Source: Candidatus Anaerostipes avistercoris
GTDB lineage: Bacteria; Bacillota; Clostridia; Lachnospirales; Lachnospiraceae
Reading direction: 5' to 3'
DNA: 33,304 nt
Assembly (NCBI GenBank): GCA_019119895.1
Contig: DWWD01000025.1
Coordinates: 1-33,304, forward strand
Of this stretch, positions 7,380 through 18,972 are shown one piece after another. A model generated the notes under the pieces. It was not told where the DNA came from. It saw nothing but the letters and a program-made list of their open reading frames with translations, and did not search any database. Each line of letters begins with the position of its first letter. Within the stretch, counting starts at the first letter, position 1. Both the position numbers and the translations under genes were made by a program.

Positions 7380-10300
7380 TTACAGCTGATCCATCCAGTC
7401 CCAGATTTCGGCCTGACTTCCCGCTTCATACAATTCCATGTGTTCCAGTTTTTCATTTTCAGACAATCCCGGCTGATTCACTCTCATATCGCCAATTTTC
7501 AGTACTTCCTTATCGCTGTACATTCTCTTTCGGATACTCAGCTGATAGATCAGACTGAACCGGTTGGTAATAGAACTCTGACTCAGGTCAGAAAGGCAGA
7601 TCAGCTGAATGGAAAATGTCTTCGCAATGTCCATCACAGCCCGCAGAAGGTGCTCAGATGAGGTTCTCGCAAATGGATTGTCCATGATCAGAACCTTGGA
7701 TTCATCCATAGGATCTTCCCCGGCGGATCTTCTTCCCGCAGCCCTGATATATGTGATCAGAATCGATACCATGGTGAAAAATACAACAAATTTTTCCCCT
7801 CCGGAATTCTGGGACATGGCGTCTTCCCATCGTTTCATACCGCTGTTTTTCTCATTCAGATCAATCTTATAAACATAAACCGGTATCTTGCTGGTTCCAA
7901 TCACCTGATTCAGCAGCTCCCGTCCGGACGTCAGCGCCGCGAGACGGTCTCTGATCTTCTTTTCTTCCGTATTTTCCGCCTCTTTGTTATATTTCATAAC
8001 AATTTCCAGGCAGGAATCCAGATATTCTTCCATCCTCTCCCTGGCTCCCGGATCCAGCTGTTTTGGAATATCGATTCTCAACATCTGTACCGCCCTGCTT
8101 TTTCCCGTCAGGCGGATCCTCGATTTCTGCACGATGGATTTTATTTCCTCATAAAGCATAACGGCATAACTCATGCACTGGTCCGCCACCTGCTGTTTTG
8201 TATGCTGGATGTTTTCCAGCTGTGTCTCATAATAATCCAGCAGTTTCCGGAGACTTTCCCTCTTTCGCTGATATTCTTCCATATATGGCTGAAGAGTTTC
8301 CTGGTCTAAATCTTCCGATTCAAACGGCAGAGATTCCAGAGTATCCAGAATATCTGAAATACATTTGTCCTTTCCGTAAAATTCCGACCGGATATCCTGA
8401 TACAATTTGCGGCAGTACTGTTTCTTTTCCTGACTCCGTTTTTTCGCCTGCTGCAGCCGGCTTCTTAATTCCCGGAACTGGCGGTTCGGATCTGCCTCCA
8501 GCACAGCCGCTTCACCGGTTCCCGGAAGGATTTCTGTGAAATCTTCAATCCTCTTCATAAGATTTCCTGCGTCATCCCGCTGTCTGGCAATCTGACTCCG
8601 TTTTTTCCGGTTCTCTTCGGCCTTCTTTTCCAGCTGCGTCCTTCGCCGGTCATAGTCACCGAGAATCTCATCTTTCTCCAAAGGCGCGTCAAGACCTGTT
8701 TTCTCCAGCGCCTTCTCCGCATGGGAGACATTGGATTCTGCCTTTCCTTTGGCTTCTTTGACTTGTTCCACCTGACGGCTGAAACGAATGGTCTCTGCTG
8801 CCAGACGCTCTCCATCTGCCTTCAGACGTTTGAACTCTTCCGGATCATACTGGAGATTCCGGTAATCTTCCGGCTCCAGTCCGATTTCCTCCAGTTCAGA
8901 AGCCGCCTCACGGATCTGATTTTCTTTTTCCTCCAGCTGTCTCTTTTTCGCAGCTTCGTCTTCATTCTGCTCCCGGACCAGAGTTTCATATTCTTTCTCC
9001 ATCTGCTGCAGACTGATTTCTACAAATTCTCCTTCCCCGGCGAATTCATATCTGGCAGCCTGCCTGGAAGCCTCGTCTTTCTTCACTCTGACGCCGTGCA
9101 GTTTCTGGCGGAGATGATCCGCTGCCTCCTCGGATGATTCCTGATATTTCTGGATTTCTTCTGATTATTTCTGTGCCTCCTGAAGTTTTTCAGTGACTTC
9201 TTCCAGCTCCCTGCGAGTTTCCTGGCAAATCCGGTCTTCTTTCAGAAAATCCGCGAAATCTGATTCCCTGCCGGCGGCCTCCTTCCATGTCTGTTCCAGA
9301 CCCGGTATCTGATCTCTGAGTGTTTCCAGCCGTTCTTTCACTGTCTTCCGGCTTTCCTCAAGGTTCCTGCTCTGTTCTTCCAGTTCCTGCCTCCGCTGTT
9401 TCAGCTGTTCCATTTTATTTTCTATGGATTCCCCGGTTCCTTTTTCATATGCAAAGGATTCCAGCACATTTTTACCCTGATACAGCCGGTCCTGTTCCTG
9501 TTCCCAGTGGCTTCTCCGTTCCCGGCAGTCTGACAGCTGTTTCTGCTTCCGGGCAATATAGGCTTTCCGCTGACTGCTGTCAAACAGTTCCCGGTCACAG
9601 GCTGCCAGGAATCCCGGTCCTTTTTCATAGCGGCAGACCGGTCCCCCTTCCGGACAGTTCTCTGCCAGTTCCTGATAGGTAAAAACAGGAATCAGCTGCC
9701 GGAGCATACATCCCTCATAGGAAATCTCCTCCAGCTTCTTCCATTCTTCCGTCGGCACAAGAATTCCAAAAGCCAGCAGAGGATTGCGGTCAAGTATCTC
9801 CATTCTCCGCTGCTGTTCCAGATTCTGGAGATAATCCTCCCCGGTCTCATAAGGCACGTCCGCCTCTTCCAGACACTCTAAAATAGAATTTGGAAGATAC
9901 ACATTGTTATGTTCCATGCCGTCCAGCATATCCCGGATCAGCCGTTCTTCCGCCTGTTCCCCGGCAATCCGTTTTCTCTGTTCCCGGATTTTGTCCTCCA
10001 TCTTCTTCTGCGCCGTTTCCCTGTCATAGAGCAGCTCATCATCCAGATCATACAATTTTAAAATGGTAAGACATTCTTCTTCGGCTTTCCGGAAATCTGC
10101 CATCCACCGTTCCTGCTCTGACATTTCGTATTGGAGAGCATTTAACTGCCGCGCGGTCTCCATCTGCTGCCCGGACTGTTCTTCTTCCTTCCGATACAGG
10201 GCGTCTCTCTCCTGTTTCGCGGCTTCGCAGGATTTCTCTGCTTCTTCCCGCGCTTCCCGGAGCTGTTTTTGCGCCGCTCTGACCTCTTCCGACTCCAGTT

Positions 10301-11804
10301 CTCCCAGCAGATTTCTCAGAAGAGAAACTCCTGTTTTCTCCAGAATCTTCGCCTCCTGCTCCTGAAAGTCTTTCATTTTTCCTTCCAGCATTCCTCTGGT
10401 CTGATGAAATCTTCCAATTTCTTTTTCCAACTGACTCTTCTCTGCTTTTTCCCGGCGGCGCTGTTCCTGGATATCTTCCAGCTCTTTCATGTACGCTTCT
10501 TCCTTCTCTCCGGCTTCCTGCAGCCGTTTACTCCAGCTGCATCTCAGAGAGTAAGCAAGATCCCGGATTCTCCGGGATGTCTCATTTTCCTGCTGAGCTT
10601 CGGCAATCTGAAGTTTCAGGGCGTCTGCCGCGCCCTGCAGCGTCTCGATTTTCGTCCAGAGTCTCGCCGCCTTCTGGCATTCCTGAAGCCAGACATTTTC
10701 CTGTTTCTCCTCTTCCGCCTTCTTCCTTGCCGTCTCAGCCTGCTCTTCCTGCTCATAAATTCGGTCCAGCTGTTCTCTGCTGTCATACCACTGCTCGGAA
10801 GCCTGCTCCTGCCGGATATGGAGTTTCTTCTGTTCCTGCTGTTCCAGTTCCAGAGTGATCTGTTCCAGCTGCTGTTCCAGTTCCTTTCTCAGATGCTCCA
10901 GCGCCGGATACATCCCCTGAAACTCTTTTTCCGCACTCCTGCACTGTGACAGCGTTTCTTCCAGTTCTTTCAGTTCTCCCTCCATCTGCTCATGGAAAGT
11001 TTCATACTTCTCCATCCGTTCTTTTGCCCGGATATAGTCTTCTTTGCGCATGGTTTCCTCTGACAGACTCTGCAGCAGATCCTGAATCCCGGTCTGATCC
11101 GCCTCGCCCGCCAGGTGTACTTTCTCGATATTCTTAATGATCCATTCATTTAAAATGCTGTCGGAGGTGTTGCACCGCTCAAATAATTCCGTGATACCGC
11201 CCTCATCGTTATTCATGCGGACGATGATATTTTTCCACTCTTCCTGAGAAATGCCGAATTCCAGAAGTTTTTTCCTGTATTCCCTGGCGTCCTCCCGGCT
11301 GTAATAGAAAGCCTCTCTGTTGGAGGAAACCGCCTTCTTCACACTTTCTCTGGCTTTCTCAAAAGGAAGCAGAAGCTGTCTCCCGTTTTCTTTCCGCACA
11401 AACGGAAGTGACTGCAGGTCAAAAGAAGACGCCTGCCGGTAATAATTTCCAAAGGTAAAATAGTGAATGCGCCCGCTTTCATCAGAAGCTGCCGTCCTCG
11501 GGGCAATGGCAATGCCGGTCATCAGATATTCCCTCCGGACCTCATTGTCCAGCTTCCATTCCAGAATCACATACGAAGGACTGGTGCCTTTTCTGAAATA
11601 ATCGGCCATCCGCCGTTTCTGCATTTTCAGATCTGGAAGGATCGGCTGCATCATCAGCTGGACCAGCACACTCTTTCCCCCGCCGTTAGCAAGATTTAAA
11701 AGAGCATTTTCCCCGTCATAGAAGCGGAAAATCTCGTCTGTGATTTCTCTGGTGTCATCGTTGTATGCAAAATTTATAATACGAATTCTGTTAATCTTCG
11801 GCAT
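7380..11804 (-). pseudogene. jetC: Wadjet JetC, SMC-like ATPase, interrupted by an in-frame TAA
   Basis: JetC is the SMC/MukB-like motor of the Wadjet anti-plasmid system. Two open stretches (9165-11804, 879 residues; 7380-9086, 568 residues) are in the same frame, separated by a TAA at 9165-9167 (codon 880) and 26 sense codons that keep coiled-coil character. The intact gene would give 1474 residues. Fragment one has Walker A LNLANGGGKSV (Lys44), a long coiled coil (about 235-590), a non-coiled hinge-like region (about 595-770) and part of the return coil. Fragment two has the rest of the coil, the signature SQNSGGEKFV (about 1332-1341) and Walker B KVLIMDNPFA (Asp at about 1375), where Asn follows the Asp in place of the usual Glu. 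The GTG at 9086 has no ribosome binding site. JetB ends 3 bases before the ATG, with AAGGAG inside its last codons. One missing base change or sequencing error would restore the gene. Confidence 0.85.
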
Positions 11805-11807
11805 CGG

Positions 11808-12494
11808 TCACTCTCCTTGTCCTAATATCCGGTGCAGATCCTGCACCCTTGCCTCATCCAGATAATGATAAAGAAACAGATCATCCAGACGTTTGGTCCT
11901 GCGGATCTGCTGTCCTTCTTCAAAAATGCGGATCAGCCGCTCCTGTTCCAGCTGGTGATAAGCCCGGCTTATGGTTCCGTACTTGGATTTTCTCAGATTC
12001 CAGTCGCCAATCTGCTTGCTGTCCCAGAGTCTCGCAATCTTAGCGAAATTCACATCCGCTTCTTCTTCCAGCTCTCTGGTTTTTTCCTCATTTTCCAGAT
12101 AAGACCGCATCTTCTGATCCAGCGCCTCCATCAAATCTTTGGTCTGGATAAATTCTCTCTGGATCGGATTGGTATTCTTTCCTCCGTAAAACATCTGGAA
12201 AATCATCATAAAAATATAACTCTGAAGATAGGCGTCTGCCAGTCTGGCGTCCGCCGCGATATTCAGCCGGTATTCCTTCAGGGTATATCCAAGCACCCCG
12301 TTATCCATATCCGGAATCAGATAAATGGTTTTTCCTGTATCCAGCAGCTCAAATCCCAGTTCTTCCTCAAACTGGCTGAGAATCTGCCGCACCTCTTCCT
12401 TACGGAACTCCAGATATAACTCTCCGTCCTGCTTTGCGTCCAGCTCTCCATCCTCCAGCAGTTTATGAAATATTGCCAGCGCTTTCTTCAACAT
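11808..12494 (-). CDS. jetB: Wadjet JetB, MukE-like subunit
   Basis: A 228-residue, highly charged helical protein. Its size, winged-helix-like ends (LYLEFRKEEVRQILSQFEEE near the start; GTISRAYHQLEQERLIRI near the end) and position between JetA and JetC fit the KITE/MukE-like JetB subunit that bridges kleisin and SMC heads. The frame opens at a GTG (12509), but the ATG at 12494 has an AGGAAAAGG stretch just upstream and is preferred. It overlaps the end of jetA by 32 bases and is followed within 3 bases by jetC, so translation is probably coupled. Assigned mainly by context and general shape rather than a diagnostic motif. Confidence 0.8.
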   Translation of the reverse strand: MLKKALAIFHKLLEDGELDAKQDGELYLEFRKEEVRQILSQFEEELGFELLDTGKTIYLIPDMDNGVLGYTLKEYRLNIAADARLADAYLQSYIFMMIFQMFYGGKNTNPIQREFIQTKDLMEALDQKMRSYLENEEKTRELEEEADVNFAKIARLWDSKQIGDWNLRKSKYGTISRAYHQLEQERLIRIFEEGQQIRRTKRLDDLFLYHYLDEARVQDLHRILGQGE

Positions 12495-14109
12495 CCGCCT
12501 TTTCCTCACTTTCTTTCTTCTGTACCGTTATCCTGATATCGTCCATCACAATCCGCCTGACCTTTTTCTCTGTCATGCCGCCGTATTCTTCCACGTCTTC
12601 TTCCACTTCCGTCTGAAACTTCTCCCCGGTCTTTTCAAAGGAAAGACTTCGGATTCCATAGAAATCCGGATGTTCCATTTCCATCTGATACAGGCAGTAA
12701 GAAAGGTCAAATTCCCCGTTGGCTTCCGGTATTTCTTTGTCCTCCCTCTGCCCCCATTCTTCCAGATCTATGGTTTTATAATCGTATAATTTCAGCATCA
12801 CAAGGAAAATCCGTTTTTCTTCCGTGTAAACTTCCGGCTTTTCCGCATTCTCTTTCAGATACTGATAAAACTCGGAAAAGCTGTAGGATGGATGGTCATT
12901 TCCATAAGAAAACATCCGGTCCATCAGTTTCACATGAATGGCGTCCCGGCGTTTTTGCTGCTGGAATCTTTGATCCACCTCGAATACTTCTTCTTCGATC
13001 GCGGCTTCTTCCGTCTCTTCTTCACGCAGTTTTCCCTGAGGCTGATACGGCATGGACAGCAGAAGCTGTTTTCTGGCTCTCGGCCGCTTCAGCGGAACAA
13101 ATAATTTCCAGAGAGATGCAATCTGTTCCCCTTTCACATGCTCCAGAGGTTCCATGATTTCCTTCTGAAAATCATAGCGGCGCACCATGGCCGTGTAAAA
13201 ACTGTCGCGTATGGTTTCCTCGTAAATATCGTTCATCTCAAACCGCCTGCCGATGAGATTTCTCTGCTGCATGGTCACTGTAGACAGATTCTGCCGGATC
13301 TGCGCCAGACTGCGCAGGGCTTCCGCCACCGCCTCATCTTCCATGGTGTGGTCTGCCTGTTCCTGATAAATCCGCTCTTCATCTCGCTCTACCTGCTCTT
13401 TCAGTTCCAGCATTCCCTGATATTCTTCATCCAGCAGATGGTACGTCTCATCCAGGAGCTTCTTATGCTCTCCCCGGTCGATGGTGTGGATGTTCTGCCG
13501 GATCCGGTCGATAAACAATTCCAGTTCGTGCTCTTTCTGGCGCAGCATATTCATAAGCTCCTGACTCTGGCGCAGGGCATGACGGTAATTCCTGCGCTTT
13601 AACAGCTCTTTCAGCTTCAGCTGTTCCAGCCGGAAATCCAGTTCTTTGTCCACTTCCCTGGTCCGGAACAGCAAGTTATATCCCTGATCCGTCAGCTGAT
13701 ACACAATCCTGCCTCCATCGGTGATCTTATCCCGGATCAGCCGGATCCGGATTTCTTTCATTCCCTGATCATAATCCATGACCCGGTATGTCTTTTCTTC
13801 CCCTTTGTTCTGGAGAATATCCCTTACCATATACTCCGTCAGCCGGTAAATCTCGGCATGGGAAAATTCCCTTCCATAATACGGAAGAATCTCCTCGAGA
13901 AATGCCGCCATATTTTCCATGGTGCACTGGTCATTCTCATTCAGTGTCTGCTCCATAATATAAACCAGCAGTGAAAAAAAGAGGTTGTCCATTTCCTCTT
14001 CCTCAAACCATTCCTCTATTTCCGTGGAACGATTCCTCCGTCCGATAATGGAATCCACTGCTGCCACAAATCCCATCCGCTCCTGAAATCCCTGCAAATA
14101 TTCTAGCAT
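12463..14109 (-). CDS. jetA: Wadjet JetA, kleisin-like subunit (DUF5716 type)
   Basis: A 548-residue acidic protein. The N-terminal 180 residues look like a winged-helix region (HAEIYRLTEYMVRDILQNKGEE, then TDGGRIVYQLTDQGYNLLFRTRE). A helical coiled region at about 185-290 and a C-terminal domain ending in an acidic tail follow. This is the layout of MukF/kleisin-like JetA, and the TDQGYNLLFRTREVD stretch is what I recognise from the DUF5716 group. JetA would join the JetC heads into a ring with JetB. Its ATG overlaps the jetD stop codon (7 bases) and its end overlaps jetB, marking one tightly coupled operon. No frameshift or early stop seen. Confidence 0.85.
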   Translation of the reverse strand: MLEYLQGFQERMGFVAAVDSIIGRRNRSTEIEEWFEEEEMDNLFFSLLVYIMEQTLNENDQCTMENMAAFLEEILPYYGREFSHAEIYRLTEYMVRDILQNKGEEKTYRVMDYDQGMKEIRIRLIRDKITDGGRIVYQLTDQGYNLLFRTREVDKELDFRLEQLKLKELLKRRNYRHALRQSQELMNMLRQKEHELELFIDRIRQNIHTIDRGEHKKLLDETYHLLDEEYQGMLELKEQVERDEERIYQEQADHTMEDEAVAEALRSLAQIRQNLSTVTMQQRNLIGRRFEMNDIYEETIRDSFYTAMVRRYDFQKEIMEPLEHVKGEQIASLWKLFVPLKRPRARKQLLLSMPYQPQGKLREEETEEAAIEEEVFEVDQRFQQQKRRDAIHVKLMDRMFSYGNDHPSYSFSEFYQYLKENAEKPEVYTEEKRIFLVMLKLYDYKTIDLEEWGQREDKEIPEANGEFDLSYCLYQMEMEHPDFYGIRSLSFEKTGEKFQTEVEEDVEEYGGMTEKKVRRIVMDDIRITVQKKESEEKADVEESAGNIS

Positions 14110-15110
14110 GTCTCACCTCTGTACATTCTTCTGTAATCCTGATAATTTATAATTTCCTGAGGTATCATCTTTTTCCGGTCCAGAATCTGCCCCAGCCATT
14201 CCCGGTTTCTGTCTGAAAACACTCTCAGCACCTCCCGGTTCCACTCCATATCCTTTCGGCTGGGCGCGTCGGGAAGTTCTGGGATTTTTTCCGCTTTCCC
14301 CAGCATTTCCTCATACAATCTGACAAACAGCCGTATCTTAAGTTCCGGATTTTCTTTCTGCATTCCGTCAAAAATGCAGATTCCTTCCCGGTCAATATCT
14401 CCTCCGTAAAGAATCTCCGCCTGTTCCCATCCGATTTCTCTCAAATAATCCGTCAGAGCTCCGCTTCTCTGTACTTTTTTTCCTTCTCCGTAAACCAGAA
14501 GTCCGATCTCTTCTCCCAGCAGATGACAGGTCTCTTCCTCTGAAAACAGTCGTCCGAGAGAATACCAGGGATCCTTATTTTCCAGGACAAGGACGGCTCC
14601 TTCTTTCTGCAGCTCTTTGGAAAAAAACGGCTCCGGCGTCTCATAGACTCCCAGATCTTCCATTGTAATGCCGTGAAACTTCAGCATCTGCCGTCCTCCG
14701 GGACTTTCCAGGAATTTCTCATCACCCCATATGTCAAAGGACTTTTCCTTCACAGACATGTCCGTACTCCAGTCAGACTTCCACAGATACTCACTCAGCC
14801 TGATCACCGCATCCCTTTCTTCTATATATAATGGGACATTCTTCAAATATCCTTCCACGTTCAGCCTTGTGTGGAGACGCCTGATTTCCGGAACATAGGC
14901 ACTCACATCCTGCTTCTTCCTGATCTTACGGTACATCTGATACACCGACGGCCGGAAGGATGTCTTTCCCTGACGCTTCACCGGGCGGACCCGTCCCTCT
15001 GTCTCCCACTGTTCCAGCAGGTCATGAAGTTCCTGGTAGTTCATATCAGGCTTCAGAGCCAGGACATCTTCGTATCGAAATGTAATGTTGGAAATACGAT
15101 CTAATAACAT
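14103..15110 (-). CDS. jetD: Wadjet JetD, TOPRIM nuclease subunit
   Basis: A 335-residue protein with an N-terminal winged-helix-like part (DRISNITFRYEDVLALK...) and a C-terminal TOPRIM domain related to topoisomerase VI A. The catalytic glutamate is in VLVLENKDPW (Glu177), and the metal-binding acidic motif is YGGDIDREG (Asp238, Asp240, Glu242). In Wadjet systems JetD cuts circular DNA that JetABC has looped, which removes plasmids. The ATG at 15110 has AAGGAG 5 bases upstream. It is the second gene of the apparent operon, 45 bases after the AlbA_2-type regulator with no terminator between. A jetD-first order with this JetA type suggests Wadjet type III, recalled from memory rather than checked. 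Confidence 0.9.
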   Translation of the reverse strand: MLLDRISNITFRYEDVLALKPDMNYQELHDLLEQWETEGRVRPVKRQGKTSFRPSVYQMYRKIRKKQDVSAYVPEIRRLHTRLNVEGYLKNVPLYIEERDAVIRLSEYLWKSDWSTDMSVKEKSFDIWGDEKFLESPGGRQMLKFHGITMEDLGVYETPEPFFSKELQKEGAVLVLENKDPWYSLGRLFSEEETCHLLGEEIGLLVYGEGKKVQRSGALTDYLREIGWEQAEILYGGDIDREGICIFDGMQKENPELKIRLFVRLYEEMLGKAEKIPELPDAPSRKDMEWNREVLRVFSDRNREWLGQILDRKKMIPQEIINYQDYRRMYRGETC

Positions 15111-15155
15111 GACTCTCCTTTTTCTGTATTTGTAAATATCTTAATTCTTATTTCA

Positions 15156-16802
15156 CTACGGCAGCTCATATCTTGCCGCTCTTCCTCTTCCAACCAGGAC
15201 TAATTTTTTTTCTCCTGTCAGCTTTTTCAACAAACGATATGCCTGGCTGGTAGAAATATTTAATAATTCACTGACATTATCTCTTGTAACATATCCTTGC
15301 TGTCCGGCAAGTTTGCATATCAATTCCTCAAATCTTAACTGATCGATACCTGTTTGTCTCACATACCCAACCGCATTATTTTGAGCTTTATAGACCTTAG
15401 CACTCAGAATATACGCTCTTCCTTTTCCACTGCCGCTGGCTTCCACGAGTCCGCTTTCCCGCAGACGCTCTACATTGGCTTTGGTTCTAGCCTCACTGAT
15501 ATGAATTGCTTCTGCCAGTTCTCGAATCGTTGCTCTCCTCTGGGTCTGCAGTGTTGACAAAATCAGAAGAGAATGGATTGGAAGCATCCTTCCCATCCTG
15601 TTTTCTTCATTGGCAATCATACGAGCAAATGCTAAATCCGGCTTCGCTCTTTGAATAAACAATTTGACATAACGTTCCGTTGATTCTGAATAGTCTGGTA
15701 CCGGCCGTCCGTATATGATAGACCCTTCAAAAATACGATCAATTCCTCGACCCGTACGCTCTGCCAGGCCAATTCTTTTTAAAGCATCCGCCAGAGCCTG
15801 ATTTCGTCCATGAGGTTCTACTGTAAGAAGATTATTTAAATTTACTCCCTCAATAAACCCTCCCGGACTGCTGATCGTCATTCCTTCATCTTCAATCGCC
15901 AGCCGTACCATCTGCAAAATAGAGTAATCTCTGTGACAGAAAGCATTCACCAGTCCTTCTCGAAATGCTGCTTCTGAAAATTCCGGAATCGGAATTCGAA
16001 ATAGTCCATATTCCATTTCACGTTCAGGGTTCCATGCCTTCATATAGTTTTCAAAAATCTCAAAAGTTGCCAGAATCGGCTTTGCAAATTGTTCGTTTAC
16101 TCTTACTTTTGTTCCTTCGAGAACTTGAAAACTTGCTTTCGCAGTTGGCATAATTTCCTGCAGACGTTCTTCTTTTCCAATCAAAAGCATTCCCGTAACC
16201 GTTGGATATAAAATACCGTTCTCTTCCTTCACCAACCGAAGTGCTTTATCCAATTCTTCATCCGATAATTTTAAAAGAGATTCTTCACCTTTTCTCATTT
16301 TGATAATTCTACGCAGGCGTTCTCGCTCATTCGAATCCAAATCGCTTATTTGTGCCTCGGTAACAACCTGGGCAGAAAAATCTAATAAGCTTAACTCTGA
16401 TAATCGTGTATTAATCTCAAAGGGGTACATCGGAACATTTTCTGGTGTTCCATCTAATTTTAATCGGCGTCTCAAAATTTTCCCATCGGCAGATGCTACG
16501 ATCGTCTTACTCATGGGAATCTCTATTTTTAAGACATCCAAACCTTCTTCCGTTATAATCTCGGCTCTTGCAGCTACGGAAGGAACTGTTTTATTTGCAA
16601 TCAATGCAACAACTCCTATTTCATCTGCATGTTGTTTATGAACTCCCGTAATTTCTCCGTTGTCCTCCACTCCCAAATACAATACTCCGCCATCTGTATT
16701 TGTCATTCCAATAATTGCTTCAATTAAATCATTATCCCTTAGTTTTTTTAAATCACTTTTAAATTCTACGGTAAGCGTTTCCTTTTTTGGTATTGTTCTC
16801 AT
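15156..16802 (-). CDS. AlbA_2 / HATPase / winged-helix putative regulator (COG2865 type)
   Basis: A 548-residue protein. Residues about 8-125 form a Schlafen AlbA_2 domain (TVEFKSDL, MTNTDGGVLYLGVEDNGEI). Residues about 270-375 form a divergent GHKL-type HATPase_c_4 region (EGLVNAFCHRDYS, SSPGGFIEG, GLAERTGRGIDRI). Two winged-helix segments close the protein (about 405-460, ATIRELAEAIHISEAR; and 490-548, YVTRDNVSELLNISTSQAYRLL). Such proteins are annotated as ATP-binding putative transcriptional regulators. The frame runs up to 16832, but the ATG at 16802 follows GGAGGG by 4 bases and the mapped promoter starts at about 16814, so 16802 is chosen. Repeated operators sit on that promoter, indicating autoregulation. 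The jetD start follows after 45 bases, so it probably controls the Wadjet operon. Confidence 0.85.
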   Translation of the reverse strand: MRTIPKKETLTVEFKSDLKKLRDNDLIEAIIGMTNTDGGVLYLGVEDNGEITGVHKQHADEIGVVALIANKTVPSVAARAEIITEEGLDVLKIEIPMSKTIVASADGKILRRRLKLDGTPENVPMYPFEINTRLSELSLLDFSAQVVTEAQISDLDSNERERLRRIIKMRKGEESLLKLSDEELDKALRLVKEENGILYPTVTGMLLIGKEERLQEIMPTAKASFQVLEGTKVRVNEQFAKPILATFEIFENYMKAWNPEREMEYGLFRIPIPEFSEAAFREGLVNAFCHRDYSILQMVRLAIEDEGMTISSPGGFIEGVNLNNLLTVEPHGRNQALADALKRIGLAERTGRGIDRIFEGSIIYGRPVPDYSESTERYVKLFIQRAKPDLAFARMIANEENRMGRMLPIHSLLILSTLQTQRRATIRELAEAIHISEARTKANVERLRESGLVEASGSGKGRAYILSAKVYKAQNNAVGYVRQTGIDQLRFEELICKLAGQQGYVTRDNVSELLNISTSQAYRLLKKLTGEKKLVLVGRGRAARYELP

Positions 16803-16820
16803 ATCACCCTCCATAAACAC

Positions 16821-16849
16821 ATCATAACACAACGCGTGCGTTTATTCAA
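16821..16849 (-). promoter_or_regulatory. promoter of the regulator-jetDABC operon
   Basis: On the minus strand TTGAAT (16844-16849) and TATGAT (16821-16826) are 17 bases apart, and TGT just before the -10 makes it an extended -10. The spacer contains one copy of the operator (16831-16843). Predicted start of transcription is about 16814, 12 bases before the ATG, so the leader is very short. Confidence 0.75.
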
Positions 16850-16895
16850 TTTCAAAAACGCACGCGTGCGTTTTTGACGCGTTTTTCGTGCGTTT
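16831..16895. promoter_or_regulatory. operator array (GTGCGTTT repeats with a 26-base palindrome)
   Basis: Three copies of GTGCGTTT start at 16836, 16866 and 16888, 30 and 22 bases apart, close to whole helical turns. The first lies within AACGCGTGCGTTT between -35 and -10. The second is the right half of a perfect 26-base palindrome at 16852-16877, centred on ACGCGT and immediately upstream of the -35. The third is further upstream. GC-rich repeats in an AT-rich promoter of this shape fit cooperative binding by the downstream winged-helix protein. Confidence 0.8.
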
Positions 16896-16932
16896 ACTGC
16901 AATCACTATAAGAACAAAATTGTTTTAACATC

Positions 16933-17067
16933 TTATTCTTCCATAAGTGTTTTCAGTTCATCCAGATTAAGCCAGTCCTCTCCGTCTTTCACTGCTTCTT
17001 CGGCTTCCTGCAGCTTCTTCAAGAGCTTCTTCTCAGCACGGTCACGCTCAAAATCATCAATATCCAT
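16933..17067 (-). CDS. small acidic protein, antitoxin-tail-like, 44 residues
   Basis: A short ORF encoding a 44-residue charged helical peptide starting MDIDDFERDRAEKK. It has a textbook AGGAGGTGA 9-12 bases before the ATG at 17067, the main reason for calling it a gene. The C-terminal pattern (EAVKDGEDWLNLDELKTLMEE) resembles the short regulatory tails of small antitoxin-like proteins common in this group (a Lys/Glu helix, a Gly-x-x-Trp turn, then a short helix). No toxin gene is next to it; it lies between the Wadjet-operon promoter and the ABC exporter. It could be an orphan antitoxin remnant or an unrelated small protein. No confident function. Confidence 0.6.
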   Translation of the reverse strand: MDIDDFERDRAEKKLLKKLQEAEEAVKDGEDWLNLDELKTLMEE

Positions 17068-17223
17068 AATTACAAATCACCTCCTGCCATTCTTCGTATA
17101 TTTCATATTGTTTCTTTCTTTATTTTATCCTATAATATTTTCTTAGTCAGTGCTAACTGATATTTGTATGATCCAATGAAATTTTTCCGCTCTGTGCGGA
17201 CTTGAAAAGATAGGAGTGAAATT

Positions 17224-18972
17224 ATGAATACATTCAAAAAATTTATTCGATACTACGGCCCCTACAAGAAAGTATTCTTTTTTGATTTATTCTGCGCGGC
17301 CTCCATCAGTATCGTGGATCTGGCCTTTCCCCAGATTTTAAGAACTATGACCAATACCCTGTTCCAGAGAGATGCCTCTGTGATTCTACGCACTCTGCCG
17401 TGGATTGCAGCCATTCTGCTGATCTGTTACATCCTGCAGGCGCTGTGCAAATACTATGTCAGCTGCCAGGGACATATTATGGGAGCCCGGATGGAGCGGG
17501 ATATGCGAAAAGAATTATTTGAACATTATGAAAATCTTTCCTTTTCTTATTATGACAAGAATAATACAGGACAGATGATGAGCCGTCTGGTATCCGACCT
17601 GTTTGATATCTCTGAATTTGCCCATCACGGACCGGAAAACCTGTTTATCTCTGTGGTAAAGATTGTCGGTTCCTTCATCTTCCTGTTTATGATCCAATGG
17701 AAACTGGCTCTGATTCTGGCCGCTGTCGTTATTTTTATGATCATTTTCAGCGCTTATCAGAATCAGCGGATGCAGGCAACTTTTCTGGACAACCGCCGCA
17801 AAATCGGTGACATCAACGCTACCCTGCAGGATTCTCTGGAAGGCATCCGGATCGTCCAGTCTTTTGCCAACGAAGATATTGAGCGCAGAAAGTTCCATAA
17901 GGGAAATGAAAACTTCCTTCTCTCCAAGAAGGATAACTATCGTGCCATGGGAACGTTCCAGGGCGGAAATACATTTTTCCAGGGACTTATGTACCTGATC
18001 ACTCTGACAGCCGGCGGCATCTTCATTGCTCTTGGCGAAATGTCTCCGGCGGATCTTGCCATGTACGCCCTGTATATCGGTATCTTTATCAGCCCGATCC
18101 AGGTTCTTGTGGAACTGACGGAAATGATCCAGAAAGGTTTGTCCGGTTTCCGCCGTTTCCTGGATATTATTGAAACAGAACCGGAAATTGTCGATGAAGA
18201 GAATGCCGTTCCGATTCAGAATCCGCAGGGAGATATTTCCTACAATGACGTATCTTTCAGCTATGAAGACAATGAAATTGTCCTGAATCACATTAACTTT
18301 AAAATAGAATCCGGAAAATCCGTTGCCCTGGTAGGACCTTCCGGCGGAGGAAAAACTACCATCTGCTCTCTCCTGCCGAGATTCTATGATATTACCGGCG
18401 GAACCATCACCATCGGAAATCAGAATGTCCGGGAAATGACCCTGGAAAGCCTCAGAAATTCCATCGGTATTGTTCAGCAGGATGTGTATCTGTTTGGAGG
18501 AACCGTAAAAGAAAATATCGCCTACGGCAAACCGGATGCTTCTATGGATGAAATTATCCAGGCTGCCAAAAAGGCGAATATCCATGATTTTATTATGGGC
18601 CTGCCGGACGGCTACGATACGTTTGTCGGTGAGCGGGGCACCCGCCTGTCCGGAGGACAGAAACAGCGGATTTCCATTGCCAGAGTCTTCCTCAAAAACC
18701 CTCCGATCCTGATTCTTGACGAAGCAACCAGCGCCCTGGATAATGAAAGCGAGCGCCATATCCAGAAGAGTCTGGAGGCGCTCTCTAAAAACCGTACGAC
18801 CATCACCATCGCCCATCGTCTCTCTACCATCAAAAATGCAGATGAAATCCTCGTGGTATATGACCACACCATCCGGGAAAGAGGCTCTCACCGGGAACTG
18901 ATGGAAAAAGACGGCATCTATGCCCGTTACTACAAAATGCAGTTTGAAGGTCTGGAAACCCTGGATCTCTAA
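17224..18972 (+). CDS. ABC exporter, fused membrane and ATPase domains
   Basis: A 582-residue half-transporter that should work as a homodimer in the membrane. Six membrane helices occupy about residues 15-310. The ATPase domain follows with Walker A GPSGGGKTT (371-379), signature LSGGQ (475-479), Walker B ILDEATSALD (D499, E500) and the switch His531 in AHRLST, all intact. The overall look (YYDKNNTGQMMSRLVSDLFD, SFANEDIERRKF) is of the MsbA/Sav1866/YknU multidrug or lipid exporter class; the substrate cannot be told. The ATG at 17224 has AGGAGTG upstream. It is a single-gene unit: the next gene is convergent 18 bases away. The 156-base gap upstream holds an AT-rich stretch, a TATGAT-like -10 near 17171, a TCAGT/ACTGA inverted repeat and a small CCGC/GCGG hairpin, none strong enough to list. 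Confidence 0.9.
   Translation: MNTFKKFIRYYGPYKKVFFFDLFCAASISIVDLAFPQILRTMTNTLFQRDASVILRTLPWIAAILLICYILQALCKYYVSCQGHIMGARMERDMRKELFEHYENLSFSYYDKNNTGQMMSRLVSDLFDISEFAHHGPENLFISVVKIVGSFIFLFMIQWKLALILAAVVIFMIIFSAYQNQRMQATFLDNRRKIGDINATLQDSLEGIRIVQSFANEDIERRKFHKGNENFLLSKKDNYRAMGTFQGGNTFFQGLMYLITLTAGGIFIALGEMSPADLAMYALYIGIFISPIQVLVELTEMIQKGLSGFRRFLDIIETEPEIVDEENAVPIQNPQGDISYNDVSFSYEDNEIVLNHINFKIESGKSVALVGPSGGGKTTICSLLPRFYDITGGTITIGNQNVREMTLESLRNSIGIVQQDVYLFGGTVKENIAYGKPDASMDEIIQAAKKANIHDFIMGLPDGYDTFVGERGTRLSGGQKQRISIARVFLKNPPILILDEATSALDNESERHIQKSLEALSKNRTTITIAHRLSTIKNADEILVVYDHTIRERGSHRELMEKDGIYARYYKMQFEGLETLDL

Follow-up and report, generated by a model that had tools for sequence, protein, structure and literature searches.

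Wadjet (JetABCD) cleaves closed-circular plasmids. A described precedent for a regulator encoded ahead of a defence operon is BrxR, a self-repressing winged-helix protein with inverted repeats at its own promoter, and Wadjet is among the systems with which BrxR homologues are reported to co-localize (PMC9122601). At first sight, a locus of Candidatus Anaerostipes avistercoris follows the same plan. It lies on a stretch of 33,304 nucleotides, here called the window, which is an entire contig (G000:C2) of a 2.83-Mb genome and in which a gene for a protein with AlbA_2, HATPase and winged-helix domains (the AlbA_2 gene) precedes jetD, jetA, jetB and jetC on the minus strand. An earlier note on this DNA had proposed that this first gene senses or controls the defence operon.

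Our analysis points instead, with a probability of about 0.8, to an ordinary type III Wadjet (jetDABC) at a site common to three Anaerostipes-like genomes, upstream of which a solitary AlbA_2 autorepressor gene of foreign composition was inserted, rather than to a fixed Wadjet component. The nearest named Wadjet relatives are those of Anaerostipes butyraticus (locus L100) and Candidatus Anaerostipes excrementavium (L101). A. butyraticus keeps the order ABC transporter, jetD, jetA, jetB, jetC and DUF6198 gene (98.6, 72, 86, 94, 73/85 and 87% identical, respectively) and has no AlbA_2 gene at this place, the distance between the ABC-transporter gene and jetD being 292 bp as opposed to 2113 bp in the window. 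The two loci cease to be similar in DNA sequence at the AlbA_2 stop codon and, at the opposite edge, near position 17107. In A. excrementavium, the same locus carries a PDDEXK_2 gene in place of the AlbA_2 gene. Moreover, the GC content of the AlbA_2 gene, overall and at third codon positions (GC3), is 0.405 and 0.322 (calculated on 15156-16832), as compared to 0.47-0.50 and 0.53-0.58 for the jet genes, i.e. by this measure its composition is foreign relative to its neighbours. The AlbA_2 gene, along with a fragment of a Phd-type antitoxin gene, would thus have been inserted between the ABC-transporter gene and jetD. The features of this segment are as follows.

15156..17107, no strand: segment absent from the syntenic A. 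butyraticus locus, its antitoxin-side edge being approximate
15156..16802, minus strand: gene for a 548-amino-acid protein with AlbA_2, HATPase_c_4 and winged-helix domains (Pfam PF04326, E 8e-17; PF13749, 4e-15; PF13412, 4e-10)
16821..16849, minus strand: sigma-70-like promoter of the AlbA_2 gene by consensus scan, TTGAAT-17-TATGAT, 9/12 matches, with TG and with an operator copy in its spacer
16832..16843, minus strand: operator copy AAACGCACGCGT between -35 and -10
16852..16877, no strand: perfect palindrome of 26 bp, a predicted operator
16877..16895, minus strand: further half sites ACGCGT and AAACGCACG at the outer edge of the array
16933..17067, minus strand: 44 codons remaining from the C-terminal half of a Phd/YefM-type antitoxin, 73-83% identical to three copies from the same genus

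The count that the earlier note had proposed as its own check, i.e. how often such genes stand directly before jetD elsewhere, came out at none, the outcome it had named as speaking against its claim. In a sample of 397 genomes of the family, drawn from a larger group, jetD was matched in 30 genomes (29 excluding the source genome), and a tblastn search of 1.5-kb flanks, some of them cut short by contig ends, gave no AlbA_2 match anywhere in the 29 other loci, let alone directly before jetD, with jetA standing beside jetD in 26 of them. An AlbA_2 gene directly before jetD was likewise found in 0 of 69 Wadjet loci that a jetA-profile scan had found in named genomes (again by tblastn), jetD or the upstream open reading frame (ORF) not being visible in five of these. 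Three of the 69 loci did contain AlbA_2-like matches: a divergently oriented one of 31% identity approximately 1.9 kb from jetD (L133), one approximately 6 kb downstream of jetA (L136), and one that covers the HATPase part only and lies on the opposite strand (L126). The proposal of a dedicated Wadjet regulator is thus not supported by these counts (0/29 and 0/69), whereas the product of the first gene probably does bind DNA and regulate its own promoter. The 49 genomes that contain 50 of the 69 loci include 21 with PF04326 genes, and three genomes (G083, G293 and G110) have a close AlbA_2 ortholog, or a fragment of one, and a Wadjet system on separate contigs. Altogether, the AlbA_2 gene does not look like a fixed part of Wadjet but like a chance neighbour. 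Among the same loci, a 101-amino-acid helix-turn-helix (HTH) gene precedes jetD by 5 bases in four loci of Butyrivibrio/Pseudobutyrivibrio (L141, L142, L146 and L161; the one of L146, scanned singly, matches HTH_31 at E 8.9e-12), and L153 has a 77-amino-acid HTH_26 gene overlapping jetD. As built-in regulators of Wadjet, these genes are the stronger candidates.

Seen from the AlbA_2 side, the picture is the same. We found 11 other full-length orthologs (53-84% identical) in the 397 family genomes and three more (52-59%) in other families, among 391 genomes of the class; matches to the protein at E 0.001 or better occur in 238 of the 397. None of 18 loci around orthologs and relatives (L080-L097, 3.3-17 kb each) contains jet genes. 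Orthologs (51-84% identical) adjoin unrelated genes, those scanned including tgt (L084), an acyl carrier protein gene (L090), an MBOAT gene (L081) and a Cu/Zn superoxide dismutase gene (L080), along with two defence-like neighbours, one resembling Avs5 (L082) and the other PDC-S27 (L087). That this Wadjet lineage has long possessed the regulator, and that A. butyraticus and A. excrementavium both lost it, is a thought to which the comparison of just three Anaerostipes Wadjet loci lends some room; it is made highly improbable, however, by the absence of the gene before jetD in the other Wadjet loci examined, by its composition so sharply unlike that of the jet genes and by the fact that the closest ortholog found (84%) belongs to a different genus and has a 16-kb neighbourhood free of jet genes. 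Carriage of the regulator by phages or plasmids was also considered and rejected, as all matches in 86 plasmid and 23 phage records were below 60% identity (among the matches listed, 22-26% for 15 of the 86 plasmid records and 24-29% for 15 of the 23 phage records). A search of IMG/VR with the single protein, which reaches close relatives only, returned no close relative.

What kind of protein is this? Pfam matches and an alignment of 14 sequences including that of the window show an SLFN_AlbA_2 domain followed by HATPase_c_4 and a winged helix, and we take the gene to be COG2865-like, as did the earlier note. A solved relative is 3lmm, deposited as 'Uncharacterized protein' (E 3.5e-19). The gene probably starts at the ATG at 16802, which has GGAGG ahead of it, and not at the TTG at 16832, a start that would fall on an operator copy.

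The earlier note's repeated operators over the regulator promoter are real: the array, extending over approximately 16832-16896, combines the 26-bp palindrome with further AAACGCACGCGT and AAACGCACG copies. No longer palindrome occurs in the window, and 20 dinucleotide shuffles reached 18 at most. As a consensus match, the promoter itself is not the only clear one, as had been stated, since better same-strand matches lie inside jetC (9583-9555, 11/12) and jetA (13199-13171, 10/12) and the scan total is near chance (16 sites versus 11.9 +/- 3.3 expected). The case for it comes from the operator that sits within it and from the orthologs. Among the 15 full-length sequences, a script placed an operator in the -35/-10 spacer in eight (the window, L080, L081, L169, L170, L171, L082 and L088), and by eye the same applies to L086 and L087. 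CGCACG-type motifs are found upstream in 10 of the 15; the other five, assessed by eye, have TTAACTCG-type motifs (L082-L084), TTGAATTAA (L090) or none that is clear (L085), i.e. the operator type follows the protein clade. It is this placement in the promoter and the change with the protein clade that suggest an autorepressor pattern, in which the AlbA_2 protein would bind the palindromic array at the promoter of its gene and thereby shut itself off. Allowing one mismatch, the operator 12-mer has three matches in the 2.83-Mb genome, all at this promoter and two of them being the strands of one palindrome, so no wider regulon is visible and this candidate was dropped.

The Wadjet part was described correctly as to gene order, which is confirmed by ORFs and by PADLOC and Pfam matches. 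The minus-strand ORFs run from 15156-16832 (AlbA_2) through 14103-15110, 12463-14109 and 11808-12509 to the jetC region from 11804 on; the AlbA_2 gene and jetD are 45 bases apart, jetD and jetA overlap by 7 and jetA and jetB by 47 bases, and jetB and jetC are separated by 3. PADLOC assigns JetD3, JetA3, JetB3 and JetC3 of Wadjet type III, the weakest match at E 1.3e-52, with the genes for JetA, JetB, the SMC-like JetC and JetD adjacent on a single strand as is expected of this type.

15111..15155, minus strand: gap of 45 bases between the AlbA_2 stop codon and jetD, without terminator, promoter or operator match
14103..15110, minus strand: jetD, TOPRIM-type, with GDIDREG recognized by eye (PDLC00592, E 2.6e-78)
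12463..14109, minus strand: jetA (PDLC00562, 1.6e-182)
11808..12509, minus strand: jetB (PDLC00576, 2e-83)
9165..11804, minus strand: 5' part of jetC, 879 codons followed by TAA, with a Walker A-like GGGKS by eye (PDLC00583, 8.8e-105, profile positions 1-884 of 1471)
7380..9086, minus strand: 3' part of jetC in the same frame, with a signature-like SGGEK and a Walker B-like VLIMDNP by eye (PDLC00583, 1.3e-52, profile positions 941-1431)

Where the proposed five-gene operon does not hold is in jetC as a single gene. An in-frame TAA at 9165-9167, codon 880, splits it into two ORFs, with the frame continuing unshifted to 7380. Judged by eye, the ATPase head is complete in neither ORF: the Walker A-like motif comes before the stop and the signature and Walker B-like motifs come after it, so that an intact JetC ATPase with both head halves in one protein is missing. 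In the four closest complete relatives (L100, L101, L102 and L126), jetC is free of such stops. The locus is therefore Wadjet by descent, and because the stop parts the two halves of the ATPase head, the system is probably non-functional as assembled here.

An important question is whether the two neighbours, even if brought together by chance, have become functionally linked. No terminator-like site was found by a scan of the 45 bases before jetD, in line with the earlier note, nor did a separate promoter, which together with a terminator it had named as evidence against itself, match in this gap (15111-15155). Hence jetD-A-B-C may be read from the AlbA_2 promoter. In A. butyraticus, a middle stretch of approximately 130 bp, which is missing from the window, holds the promoter-like site TACACA-16-TATACT, ending 62 bp before jetD; the insertion would have replaced this spacer, so transcription of the jet genes may now come by read-through from a repressed promoter. 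One could go further and consider a working, lineage-specific capture, in which the autorepressor has been recruited as a Wadjet switch and a nucleotide or nucleic-acid signal at its HATPase or AlbA_2 parts releases the operon. The AlbA_2 gene does lie on the jet strand ahead of a gap without terminator or promoter match, the window copy lacks the downstream operator repeat common in orthologs, which leaves the transcript open towards jetD, and the putative HATPase motif residues are invariant in all 14 aligned sequences. Yet the arrangement is seen in one genome only, jetC is interrupted and there is no sign of co-inheritance of the AlbA_2 gene and Wadjet, which together make such a capture unlikely. 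For the insertion that we favour, the jetC stop probably makes the question of read-through moot.

Several observations weigh against this interpretation. Since jetA and jetC contain consensus matches of equal or higher quality, jet transcripts need not all come from read-through, and the A. butyraticus promoter-like site is itself a 9/12 match from a scan that found 4 sites where 1.9 were expected. The number of operator matches in the genome is not above that of a control (three versus six for the reversed pattern), only their clustering being striking. The ancestral state is deduced from three Anaerostipes genomes. Finally, ratios of non-synonymous to synonymous divergence (dN/dS) of 0.03-0.16 for the jet genes against A. 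butyraticus, with dS saturated in several pairs, reflect purifying selection and say that these genes would have been functional until recently; as there was no long decay, the interruption of jetC may have arisen recently or reflect a sequencing error. Relaxed selection was not seen either, with the window jet genes evolving no faster than those of A. butyraticus when A. excrementavium served as the reference, except for jetD, whose dN is slightly higher (0.265 versus 0.251). That the stop is an error of sequencing or assembly and Wadjet is intact would fit a lone in-frame TAA in a gene whose halves both match the profile in register and both have low dN/dS; with the frame otherwise continuous and an assembly rated 100% complete with 3.55% contamination, we regard this as possible though doubtful.

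Operator-type motifs are also found behind these genes. Within 150 bp after the stop codon, they occur in 10 of 19 orthologs or fragments (6 of 15 full-length ones and all four fragments that keep their 3' end; L080, L081, L086-L088, L091-L093, L097 and L170), with less than 150 bp available for L170 and L171, as compared to 0-0.32 per kb elsewhere in the same loci. In L080, 59 bp from the upstream side recur immediately downstream (score 35, the best of 15 shuffles reaching 10). In an alignment test, which could be applied to 14 close orthologs other than the window's own gene, shuffles were exceeded only for L080, L081, L086 and L087; L082-L085 and L088-L090 were not above theirs, the motif count being the wider test. 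Among distant paralogs, four of 23 loci beat their 15 shuffles (L047; L066 with 15 versus 11; L067 and L078 by one point each). In L047 (genome G399), two copies of a repeat, with 64 of 67 bases alike, enclose a distant AlbA_2-like gene; the repeat resembles the promoter region of the gene that follows, by eye a translation-GTPase-like frame. The window's AlbA_2 copy lacks a downstream operator repeat. One might imagine that this clade consists of self-contained, horizontally moving units with arrays in the promoter and after the stop codon, and that a unit that loses its downstream array fuses to, and controls, a neighbouring operon, here Wadjet; we consider this improbable. A clean empty site for an array-delimited element was not found: the A. 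butyraticus edge lies at the AlbA_2 stop codon and the outer one approximately 200 bp beyond the array; of five loci related to L088, one also has the AlbA_2 region and four share one flank only; three relatives of L087 have one flank in common, with the edge well outside the array; in none of these seven one-flank relatives did the other flank appear within 1.5 kb; and the genus of L080 is represented by one genome, while for L081 the relatives matched over short parts only.

The outer part of the inserted segment, just beyond the operator array, holds the antitoxin remnant, which itself has no Pfam match and alongside which no toxin was detectable. Two of the three same-genus copies are whole and match PF02604: in L187, the antitoxin forms an intact pair with a ParE-type toxin, and in L189, it is accompanied by a toxin-like frame. 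That the array starts inside a broken ParE toxin gene was rejected, since 2, 31 and 229 of 500 shuffles scored equally well and, in L187 and L189, the toxin start was not where the alignment was best. Across the wider region (7380-18972), dS against A. butyraticus is approximately 0.9-1.5 for the jet genes and the DUF6198 gene and 0.29 for the ABC-transporter gene on the other side, a contrast hinting at recombination near the Wadjet locus.

Overall, the attractive notion that Wadjet has an AlbA_2 switch built in is thereby removed. At the level of titles and the openings of abstracts, with most subscription papers outside the search, no AlbA_2 regulator of Wadjet was found in the literature, nor, at the same level, a function for COG2865-type SLFN_AlbA_2/HATPase_c_4 proteins or a link of these to Wadjet. 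What the case would illustrate is how a single self-controlled gene can arrive in front of a defence operon and take the place of the sequence upstream of it. Furthermore, the operator motif that flanks many AlbA_2 orthologs could become a testable handle on a common, little characterized kind of protein.

How, then, does this locus compare with known systems? As a type III Wadjet, it has the same D-A-B-C order as its relatives L100, L101, L102 and L126, and differs from them in the in-frame stop inside jetC and in the foreign gene ahead of jetD. Its first gene resembles the COG2865-type proteins, 3lmm included, in domain order and winged helices. The Xre-type HTH genes of L141, L142, L146 and L161 also are putative regulators a few bases upstream of jetD, but these recur in four loci, with a gap of 5 bases, and encode an unrelated 101-amino-acid protein. 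Like the BrxR-type WYL regulators, the AlbA_2 protein would be a winged-helix repressor encoded before a defence operon, with inverted repeats in its own promoter as predicted targets. It does not belong to BrxR, with WYL absent among its Pfam matches at E 0.001, it is built from different domains, and in contrast to the recurring association reported for BrxR (PMC9122601), AlbA_2 before Wadjet was found once.

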